Source: Verrucomicrobiales bacterium
GTDB lineage: Bacteria > Verrucomicrobiota > Verrucomicrobiia > Verrucomicrobiales > DEV007
Assembly: GCA_023253615.1 (NCBI GenBank)
Contig: JALRFZ010000322.1
Coordinates: 1 to 11,900 of the forward strand
DNA: 11,900 bases
Direction: 5' to 3'
In this document: positions 428-11,900 of the stretch, one piece after another
How positions within the stretch are numbered: position 1 is the first letter of the stretch
Layout of the letters: each line of letters starts with the position of its first letter
The notes under the pieces: model-generated
What the model saw: only the letters and a program-made list of their open reading frames with translations
What the model was told of the DNA's origin: nothing
Database searches by the model: none
Program-made: the position numbers and the translations under genes

Positions 428-450
428 AGAGGATGCGGTCGCGCAGCGGC
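428..450. other. apparent junction between two unrelated sequence blocks
   Basis: Left of this interval the DNA holds a minus-strand gene with its ribosome binding site. Right of it, a plus-strand creatininase-family reading frame begins in the middle of the conserved domain (homology starts near GVLVLPPLAYT, codon 448-450 onward). Reading back into 1-430 in all three plus frames I find no trace of the expected N-terminal E-x-H-G-x-H-L-P segment. Both genes thus lose their upstream parts at the same place. I infer a recombination breakpoint, a mobile insertion boundary, or an assembly chimera; no terminal repeats or target duplication are visible. Confidence 0.5.
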
Positions 451-1041
451 GTGCTCGTTCTGCCTCCGCTCGCCTACACCGTCTCCTCCGGCCATACCCG
501 GAAATGGCCCGGCACGTTCTCGCTGCGTCATGAGACCTTCATCCACACCGTCTGCGAGATCGCGAGCTGGCTCCGCTCCGGCGGGTGGTCGCGGCTGCTT
601 TTCGTGAACAGCCATTTCGGCAACGACGCCTCCCTCCGCGTCGCCGTGGAAAAAATCCGAATCGAGCACCTCGGACATCTCCAGGTGGGATTGAAGCACA
701 CCTTCCTCCTCACCCCGGCGATCCGCGACTACTTCGTGAGCGATGCCGACGACCTCCACGCGAACCGCGCCGAGACCGATCTGATGCTCCACCTCGCGCC
801 CGACACCGTCGGCATGGACCTCGTCGAGGACGATCCCGACCGCACCGCCGGCACCGTCTTCAGCCATCCCGTCTCCCAGACCAGCCTCAACGGCGTCACC
901 GGAGCGCCCTCTCTCGGCGAAGCCGCCCGCGGCGCTTCCCTGTTCGAGGAAATGGTCACCGCCCTCGTCTCCGTCATCGAAACCGCGAAGACCGAGGAGC
1001 CTCCACTTGCCAAGGAATACTGGGCTTCACCGACCTCCTGA
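433..1041 (+). CDS. creatininase-family amidohydrolase, 5'-truncated
   Basis: The frame encodes the C-terminal three quarters of a creatininase-family protein. Creatininase relatives are metal-dependent amidohydrolases that open cyclic or linear C-N bonds (creatinine, formamides, the mycofactocin precursor). Visible landmarks, counted from the ATG at 433: LPPLAYTVSSGH then WPGTFSL (residues 10-31), the NSHFGN motif with metal-ligand type His61, and HANRAETDLML with His109 and Glu114, equivalent to the family's HAGxxETS. Family members run about 240-270 residues. Here the N-terminal 50-60 residues, including the E-x-H-G-x-H-LP metal ligands and the metal-binding Asp, are absent, so this copy would be expected to be inactive as it stands. 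The ATG at 433 is only the first available start, not a convincing one. The gene ends 42 bases before the GlnT-like copy A, so the intact gene was probably co-transcribed with it and may supply an amide hydrolase to the same pathway. Confidence 0.75.
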   Translation: MRSRSGVLVLPPLAYTVSSGHTRKWPGTFSLRHETFIHTVCEIASWLRSGGWSRLLFVNSHFGNDASLRVAVEKIRIEHLGHLQVGLKHTFLLTPAIRDYFVSDADDLHANRAETDLMLHLAPDTVGMDLVEDDPDRTAGTVFSHPVSQTSLNGVTGAPSLGEAARGASLFEEMVTALVSVIETAKTEEPPLAKEYWASPTS

Positions 1042-1083: not shown

Positions 1084-2508
1084 ATGTCCTCCGACTCCGC
1101 CCCCGTCTTTGCCGTTCCCGCCGGATTTGCCGCCGATCCCGGGAAGCTCGCGTCCGTGAAAGAGCGCCTCTCCGCCGCCGGTGTCGAATACCTCTTTTCC
1201 ACCTATGTCGATGTCCACGGCGTGCCCAAGGCCAAGGTCAATCCGCTCGCCTCGCTCGAGAAGATGGCGAAAGGCTCGGAGCTCTTCACCGTCGGCGCGA
1301 TGGAAGGCATGGGGCTCGTCGGACCGCAGGAAGACGAATGCGCCGCCGTGCCGGATCTCGATACCGCGATCGTCTGCCCTTGGGACAAACGCTTCGCCTA
1401 CTTCTTCGGCGACCTCTACCACCATGGCGCGCCCTACGCCAACGACTCACGTCAGATTCTGAAACGCCAGCTCGACCGGGCCGCCTCGATGGGTCTGAAA
1501 TTCAATCTCGGGATCGAGCCGGAGTTTTACGTTCTCCGCGAAGATCCAGAAACCGGCAAGCTCGTGCCCTTGCCCGAGCGCCGCTACCTCGGCACCTGTC
1601 CCGCCTACGACGTGCATCAATCCCTCGGATCGATGGACTTCCTCGATCCCATGGTGAAATACATGAACGAACTCGGTTGGGGCGTCTTTTCCTTCGATCA
1701 GGAGGGCGGCCACGGCCAATACGAGTTCGACTTCGATTACGCCGACGCCCTCACGACTTCCGACCGGCTCACCTTCCTGCGGCTGATGGCGAAGGAAGTC
1801 GCCACCTCGATCGGTGCCATCGCCTCCTTCATGCCGAAGCCCTTCGCGACCGACTTCCGCTCGGGCTGCCATTACAACATGTCCCTCGCCAGTCTCGAAA
1901 CCGGGGAGAATCTCTTCGCGGTCGAGCCCGGGTCGAATCCCTACGCCGAGCGTCATGGCATCCCGCTCTCGAAGATGGCCTTCCACTTCGTCGCCGGCAT
2001 TCTCCGCCATGCCTCTTCCATCACCGCCGTGTCCTCACCGACCTACAACAGCTACCAGGGCTTCATCGCCCAGGGCGACATGCCTGATGTGAGCTGGGCG
2101 CCGGTTCTCGTCGCCTTCGGGAAAAACAACCGCTCCGCGATGATGCGCCTGCCCTTGAACCGCTACTGCGTCGAGAACCGCGCTCCCGACATGGCGAACA
2201 ATCCCTACCTCACCGCCGCTCTCCACCTCGCCGCGGGACTCGACGGCATCGAGGAACAACTCGATCCCGGCGAACCGGTGAATGACAACATCTACGCGAA
2301 AAGCCGCCGCGAACTGAAAGCCGCCGGAATCCGCTTTCTCCCTCCGACCTTGTTGCACGCCCTCGACGCCTTCGAGGACGATCCCTTCATCGACGGCGTC
2401 TTCGGCGAAATGAAAGGCATCTACCTCGCCCAGAAACGCCGCGAATGGGAGCAGGCCTTCTACACCATTCACGACCTCCAGCTCGAACGTCAGTTTACGA
2501 GGCTGTGA
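1084..2508 (+). CDS. GlnT-type glutamine synthetase family protein, copy A (likely gamma-glutamyl-amine ligase)
   Basis: The 474-residue protein belongs to the glutamine synthetase fold, in the GlnT/gamma-glutamylmethylamide synthetase branch (about 430-470 aa), not the 700-aa GlnN type. These enzymes phosphorylate the side-chain carboxylate of glutamate with ATP and join it to ammonia or an amine. Seen in order: N-terminal beta-grasp segment STYVDVHGVPKAK (about 39-51); metal ligands in NLGIEPEF (Glu145, Glu147); GGHGQYEFDF (Gln212, Glu214); FMPKPF (Lys252); SGCHYNMSL (His263, Asn265); ATP/phosphate-binding NSYQGF and NNRSAMMRLP; and ENRAPDMANNPYL (Glu364, Arg366). At the position where classical enzymes have the ammonium-binding Asp of FDGSS, this copy has Glu74 (MEGMG), while copy B has Asp59. 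The C-terminus also departs from the family ending seen in copy B. I infer an amine substrate other than ammonia. The leader is pyrimidine-rich without a Shine-Dalgarno site. Confidence 0.88.
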   Translation: MSSDSAPVFAVPAGFAADPGKLASVKERLSAAGVEYLFSTYVDVHGVPKAKVNPLASLEKMAKGSELFTVGAMEGMGLVGPQEDECAAVPDLDTAIVCPWDKRFAYFFGDLYHHGAPYANDSRQILKRQLDRAASMGLKFNLGIEPEFYVLREDPETGKLVPLPERRYLGTCPAYDVHQSLGSMDFLDPMVKYMNELGWGVFSFDQEGGHGQYEFDFDYADALTTSDRLTFLRLMAKEVATSIGAIASFMPKPFATDFRSGCHYNMSLASLETGENLFAVEPGSNPYAERHGIPLSKMAFHFVAGILRHASSITAVSSPTYNSYQGFIAQGDMPDVSWAPVLVAFGKNNRSAMMRLPLNRYCVENRAPDMANNPYLTAALHLAAGLDGIEEQLDPGEPVNDNIYAKSRRELKAAGIRFLPPTLLHALDAFEDDPFIDGVFGEMKGIYLAQKRREWEQAFYTIHDLQLERQFTRL

Positions 2509-2927
2509 GGGGAGTGGGCCTACGGAATACACGGAAAACACAGAAGGGGGAAAGATGGAATCAGGGCAGAAAAGACTGATGGATCAAGATTCTCCGGCAT
2601 ATCGGATGCGCCCGGTATCGGAGGTGGATGAAACCTGTCTCAATGCCGACCCTCTGTATTTCCGCGTCTTCCGTGTGTTCCGTAGGCCGCCCCTCTATCG
2701 CTCGATTGTGGGCCGTATTTCTCCGTTTCCGCTCCACGACCTCCTCCTGCAGTTGGGCATCACCGTGTGCAGCTTCGTCTTCGTGGGCTGCGAGGCGTGA
2801 CTTCCTTCCGCCACGCCTATCCATTGAGGATACCGGTCCCATTACCCTAACAAAAACACCATATCCGGACCTGTCTCCCAGACCTTTTACCTTTTCACCT
2901 TTTACGCGGCCGTGGGCCGCTCCCGCC
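2509..2927. other. 419-bp intergenic region between copy A and the oxygenase
   Basis: I find no supportable gene here; short frames on either strand simply translate the repeat. It holds an inverted-repeat element (2516-2690), a less structured stretch up to about 2840, the word CCCTAACAAAAACACC at 2845-2860 that recurs before other genes in the window, and a TTTTACCTTTTCACCTTTTAC tract ending 22 bases before the oxygenase start. No clear -35/-10 pair was found by eye, though a promoter for the oxygenase could lie here given the gap length. Confidence 0.5.
2516..2690. repeat. imperfect inverted repeat, TTCCGTGT type
   Basis: The left arm (2516-2550, containing CCTACGGAATACACGGAAAA) and the right arm (2650-2688, containing TTCCGTGTGTTCCGTAGG) are near reverse complements. 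The outer 22 bases match at about 20 positions; further in, the right arm has a short duplication of TCCGCGTCTTCCG. About 100 bases of unrelated sequence separate the arms. From memory, similar TTCCGTGTATTCCGT words are scattered through intergenic DNA of Verrucomicrobiota, which would make this a dispersed palindromic element. It begins eight bases after the copy A stop codon, so it could also act as a transcript-end or stabilising structure. Confidence 0.6.
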
Positions 2928-4280
2928 ATGAACCCGGTCACCGAATCCGAAGTCCGCGCCGCCTGTCTGCCGAATCCGGCGCGCCCCTCCCGCCCCGCGC
3001 TGCGCCAGGCACCGCCCGAGCTGCCCGTCTCCGACATCCTCGCGGAGATCGGGCGCATCGCTGATCTGCCGCTCCCGCAGGCCACCACTTTGCCTCCCCA
3101 GGCCTACACCAGCGAGGAGTTCTTCCGCTGGGAGATCGCGAATCTCTTCGAGAACGACTGGATCGCGCTCTGCCACGTTTCGCAGATCCCGAACACCGGC
3201 GATTTCCTGAATCTCGAGGTCTTCGGCGAACCGCTCATCGTCGTGCGCACGAAGGAAGGCGACATTCGCGTCCTTTCCCGCGTCTGCCCGCACCGCGCCA
3301 TGGACATCATGCCCCCCGGCTTCGGCTACGACGGACACGGCATGGCGACACCGCACGAGGGCAAACCTGGCTGCGGAAATACGCGCTTCTTCCTTTGTCC
3401 CTACCATTTCTGGACCTTCGAACTCGATGGAGGACTGAAGGCCTGCGCCGAGATGGGCGAGGCCGAGGGATTCCAACGGGACGAATGGGGATTGCGGGGC
3501 TTCCGCACCGAAGTGTGGAACGGCTTCGTCTTCGTCAATCTCGATGGCGGCGTGCCTCGGACCGTCGCCGAGCAGTATGCCAGCCTCGCCGCAGACATGG
3601 CCCCTTGGAATCCGGCGGAGATGGAGCTGATCGTCGCCAACGAGTGGGATTGCAGCTTCAACTGGAAGGTTCTCGCCGAGAACTTCATGGAATCCTACCA
3701 CCACGCCGGAGCCCACAGCAAGACGCTGCAACCCATGATGCGGGCCCGCGACACCTGGACCGAGGAGGAAAAACCCTTCCACATCCGCTGCCACCTGCCC
3801 ATGCGCGAGACCGTCCGCGCCGAGATCCAGGAAAAGGAGAACAGCGGCGACGGCTGGGACAATTTTCCACCCATTCCCGGCCTGCCGGAAGAGGAGCGTT
3901 TCAGCTGGGGACTCGTGATGGCTTACCCGCTCTTCACCTTCGTCTACACCGCCGACTCCCTCATCTGGTACCGCATCCTCCCCGTCGCTCCCGACCGGCT
4001 CCAGCTCCTCACGACCATCCTCGTGCCGAAGAGCTCCACCGAACTGCCGGACTTCGAGGCCCGTCGCGAGCGGGCCAACCGCGCTGGCATCGATTTCCAC
4101 CTCGAGGACATGGAGGTCTGCATGGCCGTGCAGCGGGGCCTCGCCACCGCCGGCTACCAGCGCGGCAGACTCAGCCACCTCGAGATGCCCGTCTGGCTCA
4201 TCCAGCGCTACCTCGCGGCGAGATCGCGCGGCACCTGGCCCACGATGGATCGGCCCGCCGCCCCCTCGCAGCAACCTTGA
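2928..4280 (+). CDS. Rieske non-heme iron oxygenase, alpha subunit (quaternary-amine oxygenase-like)
   Basis: The 450-residue protein has the two-domain layout of Rieske oxygenase alpha subunits, which use electrons from a separate reductase to activate O2. The Rieske [2Fe-2S] ligands are Cys120-Pro-His122 and Cys157-Pro-Tyr-His160. The catalytic domain shows NWKVLAENFMESYHHAGAH, giving iron ligands His258 and His263, with Asp394 (HLEDMEVC) as the likely third. The residue that usually bridges the two centres is Glu255 instead of Asp, and the C-terminal QRGL...LSHLEM segment resembles GbcA/CntA-type enzymes that attack N-methylated amines such as glycine betaine and carnitine. The 34 residues between the Rieske ligand pairs are about twice the usual 15-17. 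I chose the ATG at 2928 because the frame upstream only translates the repeat. Two GlnT-type ligases flank the gene; no reductase is in the window, so its partner must be elsewhere. The exact substrate is unknown. Confidence 0.88.
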   Translation: MNPVTESEVRAACLPNPARPSRPALRQAPPELPVSDILAEIGRIADLPLPQATTLPPQAYTSEEFFRWEIANLFENDWIALCHVSQIPNTGDFLNLEVFGEPLIVVRTKEGDIRVLSRVCPHRAMDIMPPGFGYDGHGMATPHEGKPGCGNTRFFLCPYHFWTFELDGGLKACAEMGEAEGFQRDEWGLRGFRTEVWNGFVFVNLDGGVPRTVAEQYASLAADMAPWNPAEMELIVANEWDCSFNWKVLAENFMESYHHAGAHSKTLQPMMRARDTWTEEEKPFHIRCHLPMRETVRAEIQEKENSGDGWDNFPPIPGLPEEERFSWGLVMAYPLFTFVYTADSLIWYRILPVAPDRLQLLTTILVPKSSTELPDFEARRERANRAGIDFHLEDMEVCMAVQRGLATAGYQRGRLSHLEMPVWLIQRYLAARSRGTWPTMDRPAAPSQQP

Positions 4281-4360
4281 TCAGACCCTGTCTGGTGGGG
4301 CATTGAACCCTCTTTGCTCCCCGATCCACCCATTTCAGAAAAGACTAACAAACACCGAAT

Positions 4361-4441
4361 CATCTGCGGAAATCCGCGGCCCATCCGTGCTCATCTGCGT
4401 TTCCCTTTTTGAACGCGGATGATCGCGGATCTCCGCAGATG
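4361..4441. repeat. nested palindromic repeat, GCGGAT/ATCCGC type
   Basis: Left arm CATCTGCGGAAATCCGCG (4361-4378) is the near-perfect reverse complement of CGCGGATCTCCGCAGATG (4424-4441), with one mismatch. An inner pair, CATCTGCGTTT (4392-4402) and GAACGCGGATG (4411-4421), extends the symmetry. Each outer arm is itself palindromic (GCGGAAATCCGC), so DNA or RNA could fold into a long or a branched hairpin. The same hexamer recurs at 4444-4450 (ACGCGGATCC). The element ends only 32 bases before the copy B start codon. I recall comparable GCGGAT-rich repeats as dispersed elements in Verrucomicrobiota; a role in expression of copy B is possible but unproven. Confidence 0.6.
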
Positions 4442-4473
4442 TACGCGGATCCGAGCCCCATTTTCCTTCCCCG

Positions 4474-5835
4474 ATGAAATCCACCCAAGAACTCACCCTC
4501 CTCCGCGACGAACTCAAAGCCAAGGGCGTCAAATACTGTGTCGGCGCCTACGTCGACATCCACGGCGTGCCCAAGGGCAAATTCGTGCCCATTGATCATT
4601 TCGTCCATTTCGCCGAGGGCTCCGAGCTCTACACCGGCTATGCCCTCGACGGGCTCGGACAAAAACCCAACGACGACGAGATCGCCTCCGTCCCCGATCT
4701 CGACCGGGGTTGCATCCTGCCTTGGAACCAGGAGGTCGCCTTTTATCCCGCCGACAACACCTTCAAGGGCGAACCCTACGAAGTGAACACGCGCGTCGCC
4801 TTGAAAAAGGTCCTCGCCGAAGCCGCCTCGATGGGATTCGGAATGAATCTCGGAATCGAATGCGAGGTCTACATCCTCCGCCTCACGAAGGAGGGCAAAC
4901 TCGAGATCCCCAACGACGACGACAACCTCGTCAAAGCCTGCTACGACGTGAAGCGTTTCCTCGATCGCTACACCTGGCTCGACAAGGTCTCGACGACGAT
5001 CAACGACCTCGGCTGGGATCTCTATTCGCTCGACCACGAGGATGCGAACTCGCAATTCGAGTTCGATTTCAAATACGCCGACGCGCTGACCATGTGCGAT
5101 CGCTTCGTCTTCTTCCGCATGATGGCGAAGCAGTACGCCTCCGAGGAGGGGCTCATCGCCACCTTCATGCCGAAACCCTTCGCCGACAAGACCGGCACCG
5201 GGGCGCATTTCAACATGTCGCTCTACGATCTGGAGACGGGATCCAATCTCTTCGCCCGCGATCCCGCCAACGATCCGCGGGGCCTCGGGCTCACCGAGCT
5301 CGGCTATCAGTTCATCGCCGGGGTGCTGAAACACGGCCCCGCTCTCTGCGCCACCTTTGCCCCGACCGTGAACAGCTACAAACGCCTCGTGCGTCGCGGA
5401 CTGATGGCCTACTACAGTTGGGCACCGGTCTTCAACAGCTACGGCCGCAACAACCGCACCAACGCCCTGCGCGTCCCCATGGGCGGCGGGCGCGTCGAAG
5501 CGCGCAACGCCGACGCCGCCTGCAATCCCTACCTCGCCGGTGCCCTCGTTCTTGCCGCCGGCCTCGAAGGGATCCGCGAAGGGCTCGACCCCGGTCCCGC
5601 GCAGGAGGACAACCTCTACGAATACAGCCCGGCCCAGCTCGCCGCCGCCGGCATCCAGGAGCTGCCGCGCAATCTCGACGAAGCCGTGCAGGCCTTCGCC
5701 GCGGACCCGTTCGTCACCAAGGTGCTCGGCGAAGAGCTGCGCGACGAATTCATCACCTACAAAGCGGAAGAATGGCGCCAATACCACCAGACCGTCTCGC
5801 AATGGGAGATCGAGCGGTATGCGCGATTGTTCTGA
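4474..5835 (+). CDS. glnT: GlnT-type glutamine synthetase family protein, copy B (gamma-glutamylmethylamide synthetase-like)
   Basis: The 453-residue protein is a paralogue of copy A (about 40-45% identical over the central part by eye) and the more typical member of the GlnT/gamma-glutamylmethylamide synthetase branch. Landmarks: [12 protein letters not shown] (about 25-36), ALDGLG with Asp59 at the ammonium-site position, [11 protein letters not shown] (Glu129, Glu131), [12 protein letters not shown] (Gln194, Glu196; the family usually has Gly where Ser193 stands), FMPKPF (Lys234), [10 protein letters not shown] (His245, Asn247), [32 protein letters not shown] (Glu342, Arg344), and the usual ending with [16 protein letters not shown]. 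It would join glutamate to ammonia or a small amine such as methylamine using ATP. That would fit recycling of nitrogen released by the neighbouring oxygenase, or activation of its substrate. The symbol denotes the family, not a proven reaction. It starts behind TTTTCCTTCCCCG, with no Shine-Dalgarno site. Confidence 0.88.
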
Positions 5836-6182: not shown

Positions 6183-8462
6183 ATGGAAGAAATCCTCATC
6201 CGACACTTCGGCCGCAAACGCGACACGATCTTCACCCTTTCCGAACTTCACGAAATCCTCGGCGTCCCCGGCGACGGCCGGACGCAACTCCAGCGCGGGC
6301 TCCGCGAGCTCGAGCGCCGGGCCCTCGTCGTCCGTCTCCCGGGCGGACGTTATCTCTCGGCGGCTTCCGCCTCGCTCGTGGCAGGGCGGCTCCAGCTCAC
6401 GAAATCCGGGCGCGGTTTCGTGACACCGGCGGATCCGGCCTTGCCCGAGATCGCGATCGCGGCCCGGGAAACGGGCACGGCCCTGCCGGATGACCGCGTC
6501 CTCGTCCTCCTCGACGAGATGCCGAAAAAGCGATTCTGGCAGCGGGCTTCGAGCCCTGCGGCGCCGCTCGCGGGCAGCGTCGTCTCGATCGTCGAGCGCC
6601 GCCGGTCGCGCTTCGTGGGTACTTTCCACCGCACCGCCAAGGGATTCGAGGTCCGGCCGGACGATCCGCGTTTTCCGCGCGGGATCGCGGTGCCGCCGCG
6701 GGGGAATGCCGCGGTGCGTGCGAGGCAGGGCGACAAGGTCGTCGTCGAGTTGTCCCGTTGGGAGTCCCGCCACGCCGCTCCCGAGGGGCGCGTCGTCGAG
6801 GTGCTGGGCGCTCCCTCGCATGAGGGCATCGACATGCTCGGCGTGCTGCGCCAGTATGATTTGAACGGCGAGTTTCCCGCCGCGGTCTTGAAGGAGGCCA
6901 AGCGTTTCGGCAGCCATGTCCAGGCGGGGGATCTCGCGGGACGCCGCGATTGCCGTGCGCAGGCCGTCATCACGATCGATCCGGACGACGCGCGCGATTT
7001 CGATGACGCCTTCTGTCTCGAGCCGGCCGGTGCGAACCGCTGGAAGCTCTGGGTGCACATCGCCGACGTTTCCCACTACGTCCGCCCCGGGTCGGCCCTC
7101 GATGCCGAGGCGAGACGCCGGGGGAATTCCTCCTACCTCGTCGATCGCGTCATCCCCATGCTGCCCGAGGAGTTGAGCAACGAACTTTGCTCGTTGAAGC
7201 CCCACGTCGACCGCCTCACGAAGTGCGTGGAGTTCCTCCTCTCCTCCGACGGACGCATCCTCGCCACCGACTTCTACCCGGCCGTGATCCACTCGAAAAA
7301 GCGATTCACCTACGCCGGCGCCCTCGAGGTGCTGGAGGGCAGGGCGGAGGATGCGATCGGCAGGATGCTCCAGCAGGCCGGTGATCTCGCCCAGGCCATC
7401 CGCAAGCGGCGCTTCGCGAACGGCTCGCTCGATCTCGACTTCCCCGAGACAAAGATCCGTCTCGACGCCCAGGGACGGGTCTCCCGGATCGAACGCCATG
7501 AAAACGACGCGTCGCACCAGCTCATCGAGGAGTTCATGCTCCTTGCCAACGAAGCCGTCGCGGGCAGGCTGATGAAGCTCGGGCGTCCCGCGATCTACCG
7601 CACCCACGAAGCGCCGGATCCCGACCGTCTCGACGGCTACCGCAAGGAAGTGCTCGGCCACTCCATCCCCTGCGGCAACCTCACCCGTCCCGATGAAGTC
7701 CGGAAGCTCTTCACCCGTCTCGGCGATCTCGCGATCGGGGCGGCGCTGAAGATCGGCTTTCTCCGGTCGTTGCAACGGGCCCGTTACACCGCCGATCCGA
7801 TCGGCCACTACGGGCTGGCGAAGAAGAAATACACCCATTTCACCTCGCCGATCCGCCGCTACGCCGACCTCGTCGTCCATCGCAGCCTCTTCGCCCCGGC
7901 GAAACACGTCCCGGGTGACGCCCTCCACGAAGTGGCCGACCACCTCTCCTCCACCGAGCGCAACTCCGCCGACGCCGAGCGCGACAGCAAGGAGCTGAAG
8001 CTGCACGCCTTCCTCCTCGATCAGGTCCACACGGAAAAGCGGGTGCGCTACGCCGCCAGGGTCACCGCCTTGCGCGATTTCGGATTTTCCATCGACATCG
8101 AGGCCCTCGGGATGAATGCCATGGTGCCGCTCTCGCTCCTCGAAGACGATCACTACCGCCACGACCCCGTCGCGAAACACATCGCGGGACGCCGTGCCCG
8201 CCGCGTTATCCGCCTGGGCGACACCCTCGAAGTCGAGATCGCGAAGGTCGACACCATCAGGAAAATGATCGATTTCCGTCTCGCCGGAGCCGCCTCCACC
8301 CCGGCCCGGCAGCGGACCGGACGCCGTGGCGGCGAAGCCAAGGGGCATGTTCTTTCCTCCCGTCCCCGCGCCGCCGAGGGTGCCGCGATCGTTCCCGATG
8401 CCGCCGCCCCGGCCCGCCGTCGCCGTCGCTCCCGCCGCCGCGGCAAGGCCGGAGCCGCCTGA
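6183..8462 (+). CDS. rnr: ribonuclease R
   Basis: The 759-residue protein is a 3'-to-5' processive exoribonuclease of the RNB family that degrades structured RNA (mRNA decay, rRNA and tmRNA-linked quality control) in the cytoplasm. Domains: N-terminal winged helix (about 1-60, TLSELHEILGV), two cold-shock-type OB folds (about 65-235), the RNB catalytic domain with TIDPDDARDFDDAF giving metal-binding Asp266, Asp272, Asp274 and Asp275, the conserved HYGLAKKKYTHFTSPIRRYADL from His542, an S1 domain (about 618-705), and a basic, Ala/Arg-rich tail ending RRRRRSRRRGKAGAA. The winged helix and basic tail mark RNase R and exclude RNase II. The ATG lies behind CACTTTTCCTGATCC with no Shine-Dalgarno site; it is the only start that leaves the winged helix at its expected place. 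The gene appears to stand alone, with 347 bases before it and 210 after it. Confidence 0.95.
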   Translation: MEEILIRHFGRKRDTIFTLSELHEILGVPGDGRTQLQRGLRELERRALVVRLPGGRYLSAASASLVAGRLQLTKSGRGFVTPADPALPEIAIAARETGTALPDDRVLVLLDEMPKKRFWQRASSPAAPLAGSVVSIVERRRSRFVGTFHRTAKGFEVRPDDPRFPRGIAVPPRGNAAVRARQGDKVVVELSRWESRHAAPEGRVVEVLGAPSHEGIDMLGVLRQYDLNGEFPAAVLKEAKRFGSHVQAGDLAGRRDCRAQAVITIDPDDARDFDDAFCLEPAGANRWKLWVHIADVSHYVRPGSALDAEARRRGNSSYLVDRVIPMLPEELSNELCSLKPHVDRLTKCVEFLLSSDGRILATDFYPAVIHSKKRFTYAGALEVLEGRAEDAIGRMLQQAGDLAQAIRKRRFANGSLDLDFPETKIRLDAQGRVSRIERHENDASHQLIEEFMLLANEAVAGRLMKLGRPAIYRTHEAPDPDRLDGYRKEVLGHSIPCGNLTRPDEVRKLFTRLGDLAIGAALKIGFLRSLQRARYTADPIGHYGLAKKKYTHFTSPIRRYADLVVHRSLFAPAKHVPGDALHEVADHLSSTERNSADAERDSKELKLHAFLLDQVHTEKRVRYAARVTALRDFGFSIDIEALGMNAMVPLSLLEDDHYRHDPVAKHIAGRRARRVIRLGDTLEVEIAKVDTIRKMIDFRLAGAASTPARQRTGRRGGEAKGHVLSSRPRAAEGAAIVPDAAAPARRRRRSRRRGKAGAA

Positions 8463-8561
8463 AAAGCGCCTGGCCCCTCCCTTCCGGGGCGCCGGATTGC
8501 CAGTTGTCACCGGGTTCCGGCGGGCGGAGCCTGCCGGCGGGGCGCGGGCGCGTCCCCCCGG

Positions 8562-8580
8562 AGCCTGACAAAAGGCTTTT
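8562..8580 (+). terminator. weak intrinsic terminator candidate after rnr
   Basis: AGCCT (8562-8566) pairs with AGGCT (8573-8577) around a GACAAA loop and is followed by TTT before CC. It is 100 bases past the rnr stop. Both stem and T-run are short. A GC-rich hairpin without T-run (GGCCCC...GGGGC, 8472-8490) lies immediately after the stop and could help protect the 3' end. The rest of the 210-base gap to prc shows nothing else. Confidence 0.35.
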
Positions 8581-8672
8581 CCACGAATCCGTTTCAGTGT
8601 AATTTCCCAACCTGTCCCGCCGTCAGTGCTGGACAGACTCCGGACACGACACTCCCAGACTTCCTCCGCCTC

Positions 8673-11027
8673 ATGGTCCCCGCGAAACTTCTCCCGACCC
8701 TCCTCCCGGCCTTGATCGCCCTGCTCGCCGCGGGCACGCCACCCTCCGCCGCCGCGCAGGAAGAGACCCAATACGGCGATCTCGCCCTCCGCGTCGTCGG
8801 CATGCTCGAAGAGGAGCACTTCCTCCGCGAGCCTTTCAACGACAAGATGTCCGAGCGGGCCCTCGATGCCTACTTCGAGGCCCTCGACTACAGCCGGATC
8901 TACTTCACGAAGGAGGATGTCGAGGGATTCTACGCGAAATACCGCACCCAGATCGATGATCTCGTGCGCGCCGGCGGCATCCCCGCGGCCTTCGAGATCT
9001 TCGCCGTGTATGAAGAGCGCGTCCGCGACCGCGTCGAGATGGCGAAGAAGCTGGCCGTGCCGAACACCTTCACCTACGATTCCGACCGCACCGTCGAGAT
9101 TTCCCGCAAGGACTCCGAGTGGGCCGCGGCCGGGGAGGGGCACGACCAGCTCTGGCGGAATCTGATCGAAGGCGATCTCCTCCGCGAGAAGCTGATCGCC
9201 GAAGCCGTCGAGAAGGAAAAGGCGAAAGAAGCCGAAAAAGCGAAGGCCGCGGGCGAGGAGCCCAAGCCCGCCAAGGAGGACGCCGAGTCGAAGAAATCCA
9301 TCTACGAGAAAGTCTCCGACCGCTACGACCGCATCCTCAAGCGGGTGAAGGAAAACACCACCGAGGATGTCGCGGCCCTGTTCATCAAGTCGATCTCCGC
9401 GGCCTATGATCCGCATTCCGAGTATTTCTCGCAGCAGCAATACGACAATTTCCGCATCGGGATGAATAAGTCCCTCACCGGGATCGGCGCGATGCTGCAA
9501 AAGAACGAGGACGAGGGCGGCGCCACGATCGAAGGGCTCGTCGTCGGCGGCCCCGCTTTCAAGGCCGGCAAACTCGAGGTGAGTGATCGCGTCATCGGCG
9601 TGGCGCAGGGCGCCGACGGGGAATTTGTCGATGTCGTCGAGATGAAGCTTTCCGACATCGTCGATCTCATCCGCGGCGAGATCGGCACGATCGTGCGTCT
9701 CAAGGTGATTCCCAAGGGCAAGGACGGCGAGATCAAGCTCGTCGACATCCTGCGCGACAAGATCGACCTCAAGGACAGTCTCGCCACCGCCGACCTCATC
9801 ATCACCAAGGATCCCTCCGGAGCCGAGGAGAAGCTGGGCTGGATCACCCTGCCTTCCTTCTACGCCGACATGGACGGCGGCCAGACCAGCACCACCACGG
9901 ACGTGCGCCGCCTCCTCACCCGGCTCTCCATCGAGGGCATCAACGGTCTCGTGATCGACCTCCGCGACAACGGTGGCGGTTCACTCGAGGAAGCGATCAA
10001 CATGACCGGGCTCTTCATCCGCAAGGGGCCGGTCGTGCAATCGGTCGATTGGCGCGGCCAGCGCGACCAGAAATATTCGCGCAACGGCGAGGCCGTCTAC
10101 GGCGGGCCGCTCCTCGTGCTCGTGAACAAGGCGAGCGCCTCCGCCTCGGAGATCTTCGCGGCCGCGCTGCAGGATTACGGGCGCGCCGTCATCGTCGGCG
10201 ACGAGTCCACTTTCGGGAAGGGTACGGTGCAGCAGCTGCGCCCCGTCCTCGGCCGCAAACTGTCCCTGCCTTTCGCCCGCGAGCCCGAGCAGGATGGTGC
10301 CCTCAAGCTCACCATCCAGACCTTCTACCGCATCGACGGCCACTCCACGCAGCGGCACGGCGTTGTCCCCGAGATCCGTCTTCCCTCCATGCTCGACATC
10401 GCCGAGATCGGGGAAGGGGCCCTGCCCAACGCCCTCGTCGTCGATCCGATCGAGCCGAGCCGCTACCTGCCCTTCTTCGAGAAGCCGATTGATTACGAGA
10501 TCCTCCAGAAAGCCTCCGAGGCCCGCGTGGCTTCCGGCCGCGATTTCGAATATATCCTGAAGGACATCAACGAAGAAAAGGAACGCATCGCCAGAAACGC
10601 GATTTCCCTGAATCTCGCCAAGCGCAATGAAGAGACCGCCCGGGCGGAGGTCGAGCGCGAGGAACGCAAAAAGTCGCAGATCGAATACTTCGCCTCCGTC
10701 CGCGAGGCCGAGAAGGATCTCTTCACGATCTACAAGCTCACGCAGGACAACGTCCTCGAGGAAAAGCTCGTCCTCCGCGACGAGCTCTCCGAGGAGCAGC
10801 TCAGCGGGATGTCCCGCGGTGGAGCCGACGAGGAGGAGGATCCCGAGATCAAGCTCCTCGAGTATCCCCACAAGTTCGACCCCTACGAGCGCGAGACCAT
10901 CCGCATCCTCCAGGATCTCATCGCCATCGGCAAGACGGGCAAACCCGTGAACATCTCCGAGGCGAAGCCCGAGCCCCGCGTGAAGACGGTGCCGATCGAG
11001 GCGAAAACCGCGCCGGAGGCGAACTGA
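8673..11027 (+). CDS. prc: tail-specific (C-terminal processing) protease Prc/Tsp, S41A family
   Basis: The 784-residue protein is a periplasmic serine protease that degrades or trims proteins from their C-termini, including in E. coli envelope and peptidoglycan-enzyme turnover. An N-terminal signal peptide ends near residue 28 (PPSAAA before QEE). An alpha-helical N-domain follows (about 33-255) with DPHSEYFSQQQYDNF at its end. The PDZ domain (about 268-360) contains GIGAMLQ and VVGGPAFKAG. The S41 core (about 385-570) carries DLRDNGGG, KASASASEIF with catalytic Ser490 and GKGTVQ with Lys516, the Ser-Lys pair of this family. The C-terminal helical DUF3340-type region (about 575-745) includes a charged coiled-coil stretch near 628-665. 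A Lys/Glu/Ala-rich stretch of about 35 residues (roughly 175-210) inside the N-domain has no counterpart I recall in E. coli Prc (682 aa) and accounts for part of the extra length. The ATG follows GACTTCCTCCGCCTC with no Shine-Dalgarno site. A strong terminator follows the gene. Confidence 0.95.
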   Translation: MVPAKLLPTLLPALIALLAAGTPPSAAAQEETQYGDLALRVVGMLEEEHFLREPFNDKMSERALDAYFEALDYSRIYFTKEDVEGFYAKYRTQIDDLVRAGGIPAAFEIFAVYEERVRDRVEMAKKLAVPNTFTYDSDRTVEISRKDSEWAAAGEGHDQLWRNLIEGDLLREKLIAEAVEKEKAKEAEKAKAAGEEPKPAKEDAESKKSIYEKVSDRYDRILKRVKENTTEDVAALFIKSISAAYDPHSEYFSQQQYDNFRIGMNKSLTGIGAMLQKNEDEGGATIEGLVVGGPAFKAGKLEVSDRVIGVAQGADGEFVDVVEMKLSDIVDLIRGEIGTIVRLKVIPKGKDGEIKLVDILRDKIDLKDSLATADLIITKDPSGAEEKLGWITLPSFYADMDGGQTSTTTDVRRLLTRLSIEGINGLVIDLRDNGGGSLEEAINMTGLFIRKGPVVQSVDWRGQRDQKYSRNGEAVYGGPLLVLVNKASASASEIFAAALQDYGRAVIVGDESTFGKGTVQQLRPVLGRKLSLPFAREPEQDGALKLTIQTFYRIDGHSTQRHGVVPEIRLPSMLDIAEIGEGALPNALVVDPIEPSRYLPFFEKPIDYEILQKASEARVASGRDFEYILKDINEEKERIARNAISLNLAKRNEETARAEVEREERKKSQIEYFASVREAEKDLFTIYKLTQDNVLEEKLVLRDELSEEQLSGMSRGGADEEEDPEIKLLEYPHKFDPYERETIRILQDLIAIGKTGKPVNISEAKPEPRVKTVPIEAKTAPEAN

Positions 11028-11060
11028 AGCGCGGCCTCATCCACCGGCGCGGGTGGTGGA

Positions 11061-11093
11061 GCAGGTGGGATGTCGAGATTCCGCCTGCTTTTT
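11061..11093 (+). terminator. intrinsic terminator of prc
   Basis: GCAGGTGGGA (11061-11070) pairs with TTCCGCCTGC (11079-11088) to form a ten-base stem with two G-U wobbles and an eight-base loop, followed directly by TTTTT (11089-11093). It lies 33 bases after the prc stop and 14 bases before the next start codon, so the downstream gene must have a promoter overlapping this region or depend on read-through. Confidence 0.85.
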
Positions 11094-11107
11094 CGTATTC
11101 CGGGGGA

Positions 11108-11900
11108 ATGAAACGTTTCGCCCTTATCGCCCTGTTCTTTCTTTCCGTCGGCACCGCCCCCGCCATCGATTACCCGTACGTCACCGACGAGCCGCAGAAG
11201 ACCGGCTGGCCGCTGACGGACGAGGAACGCGCCTACATTGTCGACAAGGCCGAACACGAGCGTCGTCCCGGGCGTGAGCGCAACCAACATCTGCCGCATC
11301 TCTGGCCCGTCGTGCCGACCGCCGGCCATTTCGGGGGCGACGCGTGGCTGAAACTGCACGAGGCCCATGTCAGGACGGTGCGGGAAAACAAGGGGCCTGT
11401 CGACGTGCTCCTCGTCGGCGACAGCATCACGATCCAATGGGGCGATTCATGGGCGAAACATTTCCCGGACAAGAAGGCCGTGAACATCGGCATCGGCGGC
11501 GACAAAACCCAGAACGTGCTCTGGCGCCTGGACCACGGCGGGGTCGAAGGTCTCCAGCCGGAGGCGATCGTGCTCATGATCGGCAACAACAACCTGTTCT
11601 TCACTCCCGAGACGGGGATCGAGGCCGCCGCGAAGGGGATCGGAATGTGCGTGAAAAACCTCCGCGAAAAGTTTCCCGACACCCCGATCATCGTCGCGAA
11701 AATCCTGCCCGCCCACGCGCCGGGGAACCGCTTCTACGAGGACGCCAGGAAAACCAACGCCGCCCTCGACCTGTTGAAACCCGGCGGCGATCCAAAGGTC
11801 CGTGTCCTCGATCTCTGGAGCGATTTCACCCATGCCGACGGCACGATCAAAAAGGACCTTTTCACCCCGGACCACATCCATCTCTCGCCGGCGGGATATG
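11108..11900 (+). CDS. secreted SGNH/GDSL-family hydrolase, partial (C-terminus beyond right edge)
   Basis: 264 codons are present and the frame is still open at the right edge. MKRFALIALFFLSVGTAPA is a typical signal peptide, cleaved near residue 19, so the enzyme is exported. After a linker of about 75 residues comes the SGNH fold: block I LLVGDSIT with the nucleophile Ser near residue 104, block II GIGGDKTQNVLWRL (oxyanion Gly), block III MIGNNNL (oxyanion Asn), and block V DHIHLSPAGY supplying the catalytic Asp and His. This order matches the platelet-activating-factor acetylhydrolase-like group of esterases/lipases, which in bacteria often deacetylate sugars or polysaccharides; the substrate here cannot be read from sequence. 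Only a few residues should be missing at the end. The ATG follows CCGGGGGA, a poorly spaced purine run, and begins just after the prc terminator. Confidence 0.9.
   Translation, partial: MKRFALIALFFLSVGTAPAIDYPYVTDEPQKTGWPLTDEERAYIVDKAEHERRPGRERNQHLPHLWPVVPTAGHFGGDAWLKLHEAHVRTVRENKGPVDVLLVGDSITIQWGDSWAKHFPDKKAVNIGIGGDKTQNVLWRLDHGGVEGLQPEAIVLMIGNNNLFFTPETGIEAAAKGIGMCVKNLREKFPDTPIIVAKILPAHAPGNRFYEDARKTNAALDLLKPGGDPKVRVLDLWSDFTHADGTIKKDLFTPDHIHLSPAGY

Follow-up and report, generated by a model that had tools for sequence, protein, structure and literature searches.

What compound would call for two glutamine synthetase-like ligases and a Rieske oxygenase encoded side by side? The question is raised by positions 1084 to 5835 of contig JALRFZ010000322.1 of a Verrucomicrobiales bacterium (assembly GCA_023253615.1), where two ligase genes of the GlnT type, GlnT A and GlnT B, enclose the gene for a Rieske alpha subunit behind a creatininase-family gene. 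The window, meaning the whole stretch of DNA analysed, is this entire contig of 11900 bp. A first-pass annotation had described GlnT A, the Rieske gene and GlnT B as co-directional, and all three lie on the plus strand with the expected domains. Judged by synteny and co-occurrence, the block very probably belongs to a guanidine-degradation cluster. Beyond this, we lean towards regarding it as the front part of a catabolic cluster that would use a guanidino compound, most likely an N-substituted guanidine, as nitrogen source. The first-pass annotation missed the link to guanidine because the guanidine genes lie outside the window.

Conservation of the block and its guanidine neighbours

An ortholog of the Rieske gene was found in 11 of the 32 other genomes of the same genus that were searched for it, at 66-95% identity. 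The creatininase-type gene, the Rieske gene and GlnT B ran together in all 11, beside an ATP-binding cassette (ABC) importer composed of a substrate-binding protein, a permease and an ATPase, and in eight of them GlnT A was in the run as well, giving the exact order creatininase-GlnT-Rieske-GlnT. Because this exact order recurs in eight of the 11 ortholog-bearing genomes, the arrangement is not a matter of chance. Conservation in other genomes, on which the first-pass annotation had made a joint pathway depend, is thus present. Three more genomes (G007, G024 and G028) had only a second, related Rieske gene (about 43-46% identity), and kept the creatininase-type gene, GlnT B and the importer genes as far as their stretches reach.

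The conserved neighbours comprise the importer, an FGE-like protein, a xylose-isomerase-like TIM barrel, an SDR, a PuuE-like hydrolase, a NikR-like regulator, two DUF1989 proteins, a urea/guanidine carboxylase and an allophanate hydrolase. In Roseibacillus persicicus KCTC 12988 (locus L055, on NZ_BMXI01000010) they form the collinear run SBP1-permease-ATPase-creatininase-GlnT-CMD-Rieske-SDR-FGE-(two genes)-TIM-NikR-two DUF1989-carboxylase-allophanate hydrolase, in which the two further genes encode a periplasmic-binding-like protein and a 2-hydroxyacid dehydrogenase, and PuuE is absent. The gaps from the Rieske gene to the allophanate hydrolase gene are at most 63 bases there, with the first possible starts used. 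In locus L063, there are overlaps of 4 bases between the Rieske and FGE genes and between the FGE and TIM genes, the gap between TIM and the carboxylase is 17 bases, and the carboxylase and hydrolase genes overlap by 4. The structural model of the TIM barrel (pLDDT 90.8) gave only a general xylose-isomerase-like fold.

The L055 carboxylase scored 1799.4 bits with TIGR02712 (cut-off 1303.85), and the DUF1989 pair of this locus scored 312.9 bits with TIGR03425 (cut-off 205.95) and 325.8 bits with TIGR03424 (cut-off 284.7). DUF1989 proteins are described as the carboxyguanidine deiminase, CgdAB (PMC11271267), and a guanidine carboxylase as bearing Asp at the position of Kluyveromyces lactis 1584 and Asp, not Asn, at 1330 (PMC11410670). 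Both signature residues are present in 17 of the 20 readable carboxylase copies of the 79 listed loci, the other three having Cys at 1330, and in 11 of 11 readable copies of the further genus stretches, including a piece from the window's own genome (L130); two copies, L052 and L131, were unreadable there. The Cys-type carboxylases, with the change at the very position that distinguishes guanidine from urea enzymes, lie at L063:13004-16621, L074:12867-16484 and L078:10831-14448. In the genome of the window, the carboxylase copy is in two contig pieces, contig C765 holds genes similar to the DUF1989 pair (62% and 82%), and the allophanate hydrolase model TIGR02713 matched in part on contigs C772 and C697, with both scores under the cut-off; it scored above the cut-off in 14 of 14 other Rieske-positive genomes of the genus. 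The substrate-binding protein of the importer resembles the TIGR03427 'uca' type, at a score below the cut-off. The importer is tied to guanidine operons, because the same importer sits beside carboxylase genes in the Rieske-free operons of G015, G034, G036, G037, G040 and G044. As a separate observation, the second DUF1989 protein of L055 (UAAP2 model; L055:16660-17304) also gives a match to the model of trimethylamine N-oxide demethylase, NF053776 (E 1e-29; 103.6 bits, cut-off 1100), which suggests that the two share ancestry.

The strength of the guanidine link was followed in a wider scan of 84,980 species genomes, which gave a best-match sample of at least 79 loci with named records; all counts over the 79 loci rest on the matches listed. 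A guanidine-core gene was present in the stretch in 18 of 36 loci at a Rieske identity of at least 53%, in 7 of 20 at 38-52% and in none of 23 at 33% or below, that is, in 25 of the 56 listed loci at 38% or above versus 0 of 23. Carboxylase anywhere in the genome was found for 48 of 55 loci at 38% or above (L084 left out), versus 2 of 23 in the distant band. Among the 31 loci lacking a local core gene, six came from genus genomes with a carboxylase elsewhere, and for the other 25 a carboxylase was found in 17 of the 24 genomes searched (L084 again left out). In the genus itself, 15 of 15 Rieske-positive versus 2 of 18 Rieske-negative genomes had the carboxylase, either whole or as large pieces. 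These counts are not independent, because some loci come from genomes that are also in the genus count, the genomes are related to one another, and a number of the negatives are incomplete.

The closer loci in the list are mostly from Verrucomicrobiota, including the cultured R. persicicus, Luteolibacter marinus and Haloferula luteola, with a few from cyanobacteria, alphaproteobacteria and gammaproteobacteria; the 56 loci at 38% Rieske identity or above lie in 54 assemblies. At E 1e-70, the query genome alone matched in a search among 292 cyanobacterial genomes, and the same was true among 293 genomes of the order of L096. At E 1e-25, 14 of 386 cyanobacterial genomes matched, namely the query genome and 13 weak matches of 25-32% identity; three of the 13 were examined and had no guanidine-core labels nearby. 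Beyond Verrucomicrobiota, a Rieske-GlnT-TIM-SBP2-permease group without local guanidine genes was seen at L087:6085-12557, L095:3629-11188 and L096:9911-18994. A second cluster, with GlnT A-type ligase, SDR, second-type Rieske, FGE, importer and TIM genes, lies at L036:6899-14845 in genome G025. Metagenome bins titled Akkermansia muciniphila (L062, L067 and L080) carry the Rieske family of the cluster, and these species names look doubtful.

The ligases, the oxygenase and the creatininase-type gene

The first-pass annotation had called the two ligases GlnT-type, and by published marker residues both look like the gamma-glutamylmethylamide synthetase GmaS rather than an ammonia-type enzyme. GlnT B scores above the TIGR03105 cut-off of 469.6 bits, and GlnT A below it at 435.9. 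The best solved relative of each is the glutamate-methylamine ligase 9qur (E 2.8e-113 for GlnT B), followed in both cases by another methylamine-type ligase, 7cql. The markers reported for GmaS are the catalytic D177, E186 and R312, seven amine-pocket residues of RhGmaS and Trp300 (PMC7948447). In printed alignments, GlnT A and GlnT B keep the equivalents of Asp177, Glu186 and Arg312 as well as of Tyr147, Glu179 and Lys30'; the GmaS Trp replaces the Glu of the Glu-flap of glutamine synthetase, and Thr replaces the ammonium-binding Asp50'. Five of the seven pocket residues are kept, and the two changed are Q175, which is Ser, and N188, which is Asp.

This Ser/Asp pair was present in 48 of 50 GlnT open reading frames of the 79 loci, the rest being one unreadable fragment and one opposite-strand copy with Gln/Asn (L087), and in 26 of 26 GlnT copies of the genus stretches. 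A GlnT of the Ser/Asp type was found in 15 of 15 Rieske-positive versus 0 of 18 Rieske-negative genomes of the genus, and three GlnT copies outside the block, in G008, G023 and G037, have Gln/Asn. A tree of 57 rows split four Gln/Asn copies from the 53 others with a support of 100/100, with long branches on the Gln/Asn side and an unsure deeper order. On the grounds of the residue pair and of this split, the GlnTs of the cluster are a separate branch of putative amine-type ligases with an altered pocket. Compared with GmaS, their best solved relative, they thus retain the catalytic residues and Trp300 and differ in two pocket positions and in forming a clade of their own. An aniline-type ligase was also considered and rejected. 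AtdA1/NpaA1 (PMC11335346) is likewise a glutamine-synthetase-like amine ligase feeding an amine degradation pathway; however, GlnT A and GlnT B are both much more similar to GmaS (9qur) than to the solved aromatic-amine ligase, NpaA1 (8wwu), and the AtdA1-like function proposed for them was not borne out.

The Rieske open reading frame can be read from 2628, and 16 of 19 aligned relatives begin at the ATG at 2928; the other three have longer, poorly aligned N-termini. Aligned to CntA, the protein has the iron motif E255-x2-H258-x4-H263, and the ligand patterns C-x-H, C-x2-H and E-x2-H-x4-H are kept in 61 of 61 Rieske copies that are at least 38% identical to either of two reference Rieskes. 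The nearest solved folds to its AlphaFold model (pLDDT 84.5, pTM 0.85) are CntA and Stc2, which account for the 17 best Foldseek hits. Both fold and motif agree with the CntA/GbcA kind assigned to it in the first-pass annotation. CntA and Stc2 oxidise carbon beside nitrogen. The window enzyme shares with CntA, GbcA and Stc2 the fold, the Rieske ligands and the iron motif, but its identity to CntA is 22% over the model, it scores 128.6 bits with the GbcA equivalog NF058607 against a cut-off of 670, and no reductase gene is assigned nearby.

A creatininase-family gene had been placed before GlnT A. It is present, but only as its C-terminal part, which covers positions 53-238 of the 238 of the PF02633 profile in a Pfam search and to which residues 59-252 of an intact homolog align at 72% (tblastn); the first 58 residues or so are missing. 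A true creatininase was rejected as a candidate, with a TIGR04448 score of 113.3 bits against a cut-off of 235. The intact homolog in L028 keeps the creatininase residues E34, H36, D45 and H120 and does not keep E122, W154 and W174, which we take to have functional roles in creatininase. The expectation that GlnT and the creatininase-type gene belong together held. The two occur together in 35 of the 79 listed loci, adjacent in 28, and in 29 of the 36 loci of the closest band; in G010 the creatininase-type gene was detected by tblastn. GlnT B, creatininase-type and SBP1-type binding-protein genes are also grouped in two Rieske-free genomes that have guanidine carboxylase; this set begins about 3 kb from the guanidine operon in G050 and is on another contig in G055. 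The role of the ligase and hydrolase may therefore not depend on the oxygenase.

The features of the window are collected in Table 1. On the plus strand, the creatininase-family part is followed by GlnT A, the Rieske gene, GlnT B and the three downstream genes in the order given there, and Pfam and NCBIfam searches of the window showed no link of those three genes to the cluster. The assembly is fragmented (802 contigs, 84.73% complete, 4.65% contaminated), and as the window is a whole contig of it, any genes upstream of the block are out of view. Nucleotide similarity to L024, from the genome with the 95% Rieske ortholog, sets in abruptly at base 429, inside the creatininase gene. Bases 1-428 had no match longer than 15 bases in the L024 locus and did not recur elsewhere in the window's own assembly, and a minus-strand open reading frame at 113-415 gave no Pfam or NCBIfam match. 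Because this segment is unmatched in both places and the creatininase gene is short by its first residues, the start of the contig is probably a false or foreign join, an assembly chimera.

Table 1. Features of the 11900-bp window with their positions.
Feature	Position	Strand	Remark
Unmatched segment	1..428	none	No counterpart in the cluster of the closest relative; probable assembly chimera or foreign join
Creatininase-family (PF02633) amidohydrolase, C-terminal part only	433..1041	+	PF02633 E 1.5e-40
GlnT A, GmaS/GlnT-like putative glutamate-amine ligase, divergent paralog, 474 aa	1084..2508	+	PF00120 E 9.6e-81
Rieske non-haem iron oxygenase alpha subunit, CntA/GbcA-like, 450 aa	2928..4280	+	PF00355, PF00848
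GlnT B, GmaS/GlnT-like putative glutamate-amine ligase, 453 aa	4474..5835	+	TIGR03105 611.7 bits
RNase R, tail-specific protease, GDSL-type hydrolase	6183-11899	+	Downstream of GlnT B

A proposed route and the competing explanations

We suggest a route in which the importer would take up an N-substituted (alkylated or methylated) guanidine and the Rieske oxygenase would hydroxylate the carbon adjoining a guanidine nitrogen. The resulting hemiaminal would fall apart, perhaps with the help of an accessory protein, into free guanidine and an aldehyde, which would be formaldehyde if the substituent is a methyl group. Carboxylation, deimination and hydrolysis would then turn the guanidine into ammonia and CO2. 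For the release of guanidine from an N-substituted guanidine by the Rieske enzyme, we see the chances as evenly balanced. With less assurance, GlnT A and GlnT B could form the gamma-glutamyl amide of an amine in the route, and the creatininase-family amidohydrolase could remove the glutamyl group; that they act as such an on/off pair is possible but rather doubtful. A gene of the formaldehyde-activating GFA family, present in 12 of the 56 loci (Pfam was run on 11 of the 12), would fit N-demethylation, and the SDR, PuuE-like and TIM enzymes would point instead to a larger substituent. The GFA-family gene was noticed at L076:11690-12136, directly 3' of a Rieske-linked gene pair, when Pfam was run on ten unlabelled neighbours, and it has relatives in 11 further loci.

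Several points weigh against this route. A core gene is missing from the stretch in 31 of 56 loci, and in 7 of 24 such genomes searched no carboxylase was found. The co-occurrence counts ignore relatedness; of the 18 Rieske-negative genomes, 8 are less than 80% complete. The tightest run, that of L063, holds a Cys-type carboxylase, and the guanidine genes of the window's genome are on other contigs, where carboxylase and hydrolase are both split in two. The SDR, PuuE-like and TIM enzymes exceed the needs of a simple demethylation, and the GFA gene was not found in 21 stretches of the window's own genus. GlnT and creatininase-type genes stand beside an SBP1-type gene in the Rieske-free G050 and G055. 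The first-pass annotation had proposed transporters and a reductase as neighbours to look for; transporters were found in the form of the importer, but in the R. persicicus run, no gene among the 17 received a reductase assignment. Lastly, no guanidine riboswitch was detected in the 19 stretches scanned, the window among them; such riboswitches are a frequent, not a universal, mark of guanidine operons.

Among the other explanations, the one that survives best is that the GlnTs are ordinary glutamine synthetases assimilating guanidine-derived ammonia, with an unrelated job for the creatininase-type enzyme. The Asp at the place of GmaS N188 counts in its favour, being also found in ammonia-type synthetases, that of Bacillus subtilis for example, and so does the Rieske-free gene set in the carboxylase-bearing G050 and G055. 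Moreover, guanidine degradation is reported to yield three ammonia molecules (PMC11410670). However, the ligases have Thr for Asp50', the GmaS Trp at the Glu-flap and five of the seven amine-pocket residues, and no GlnT or creatininase-type gene was found within the stretches examined of the six Rieske-free guanidine operons named above. We regard ammonia assimilation as unlikely.

Less probable again is the reading of the first-pass annotation, in which a non-guanidine amine receives a glutamyl group, is then oxidised by the Rieske enzyme and finally set free by the creatininase-type enzyme, as in aniline degradation, and the guanidine genes would be neighbours by chance or serve nitrogen salvage. 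Its conserved unit, its amine-type ligases and its CntA/GbcA-kind oxygenase all stood, while its aniline-like ligase did not and the connection to guanidine genes had escaped it. There are indeed loci where Rieske, GlnT, TIM and SBP2/Perm2 genes are grouped and no guanidine gene is nearby, namely a cyanobacterial bin (L087), in whose genome no carboxylase was found, and the gammaproteobacterial L095 and L096; yet the genomes of the latter two carry the carboxylase elsewhere. The genes from Rieske to carboxylase in L055 and L063, which overlap or lie at most 63 bases apart, also speak against chance neighbours, as does the likeness of the ligases to GmaS rather than NpaA1 against the aniline model.

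That the Rieske enzyme frees methylamine, which the GlnTs would capture as gamma-glutamylmethylamide for the N-methylglutamate pathway, is very unlikely in our judgement. Among solved structures, the two nearest to each ligase are indeed of the methylamine type, but two of the seven pocket residues of GmaS are replaced in 48 of 50 locus and 26 of 26 genus-stretch GlnTs and kept in four GlnTs outside the block, and the family assignments of the R. persicicus run include no N-methylglutamate gene. A search for the N-methylglutamate dehydrogenase marker (SoxD, PF04267) found it in 0 of 56 genomes, and is uninformative because its 14 controls were blank as well. Slightly weaker still is a creatinine/creatine route, in which the creatininase-type enzyme opens creatinine and Rieske enzymes strip the remainder from guanidine: the family name, the nature of creatine as an N-methylated guanidine and the presence of the PuuE-like hydrolase in 24 and of the SDR in 19 of the 36 closest loci would suit it, but the lost E122, W154 and W174 and the low TIGR04448 score do not.

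Relation to known guanidine systems

The substituted-guanidine route can be compared with three known systems. The guanidine carboxylase operon (gca, cgdAB, atzF and an ABC importer; PMC11410670, PMC12186494) has the same enzyme families, signature residues and importer gene set. The cluster described here differs in adding one or more Rieske oxygenases, GlnT ligases, the creatininase-type hydrolase and FGE-like and TIM-barrel proteins, and in having a NikR-like gene, and no guanidine riboswitch was found in the 19 stretches scanned. In Vreelandella boliviensis, the methylguanidine hydroxylase MgdH and the lyase MgdL are reported to free guanidine from methylguanidine, from within a guanidine carboxylase operon (PMC12508155). 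In our comparison this is the closest tested precedent for a guanidine-releasing oxygenase, as in both cases an oxygenase encoded within a guanidine carboxylase operon releases guanidine from a substituted form of it, presumably so in the present cluster. However, MgdH is a 2-oxoglutarate dioxygenase under guanidine riboswitches, whereas here a Rieske enzyme and a larger gene set are found, and in the R. persicicus run no gene was assigned to a 2-oxoglutarate dioxygenase family. In marine Synechococcus and Cyanobium, a gene annotated as Rieske lies beside a guanidinase cluster (PMC10119275). That cluster resembles the present one in the neighbourhood of this gene to guanidine genes and a TauABC-like importer, and differs in its guanidinase route and ykkC riboswitch; the likeness is at the level of annotation.

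In the literature searched, which did not cover two central papers, a Rieske oxygenase in the guanidine carboxylase pathway was not found, the co-mentions being unrelated uses, nor was a paper joining guanidine carboxylase with the term Verrucomicrobi. This suggests that a Rieske-type oxygenase for guanidine release would be new within that literature, the carboxylase pathway itself being already known. A broader picture can be offered tentatively, and we would not yet expect it to hold in full. The cluster may represent a Rieske-initiated substituted-guanidine route, in which gamma-glutamyl chemistry acts on the guanidino compound or on the amine made from it, and thus a new guanidine source without a 2-oxoglutarate dioxygenase. 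Such a route would have a distribution across Verrucomicrobiota and, in patches, in Cyanobacteriota and Pseudomonadota, and would probably be under the control of a protein rather than a riboswitch, and its clade of Cys-type carboxylases (L063, L074 and L078) might act on a third substrate besides urea and guanidine.

The natural origin of free guanidine is a major gap according to a recent review, and much of the discovery of guanidine genes that it recounts was guided by guanidine riboswitches (PMC12186494). Discovery of that kind would miss the present cluster, because no guanidine riboswitch was found there. The cluster offers a cultured strain, a defined run of genes and a few residues for testing. 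If the proposed route is true, the known roles of Rieske oxygenases and of GlnT-type ligases would be widened.

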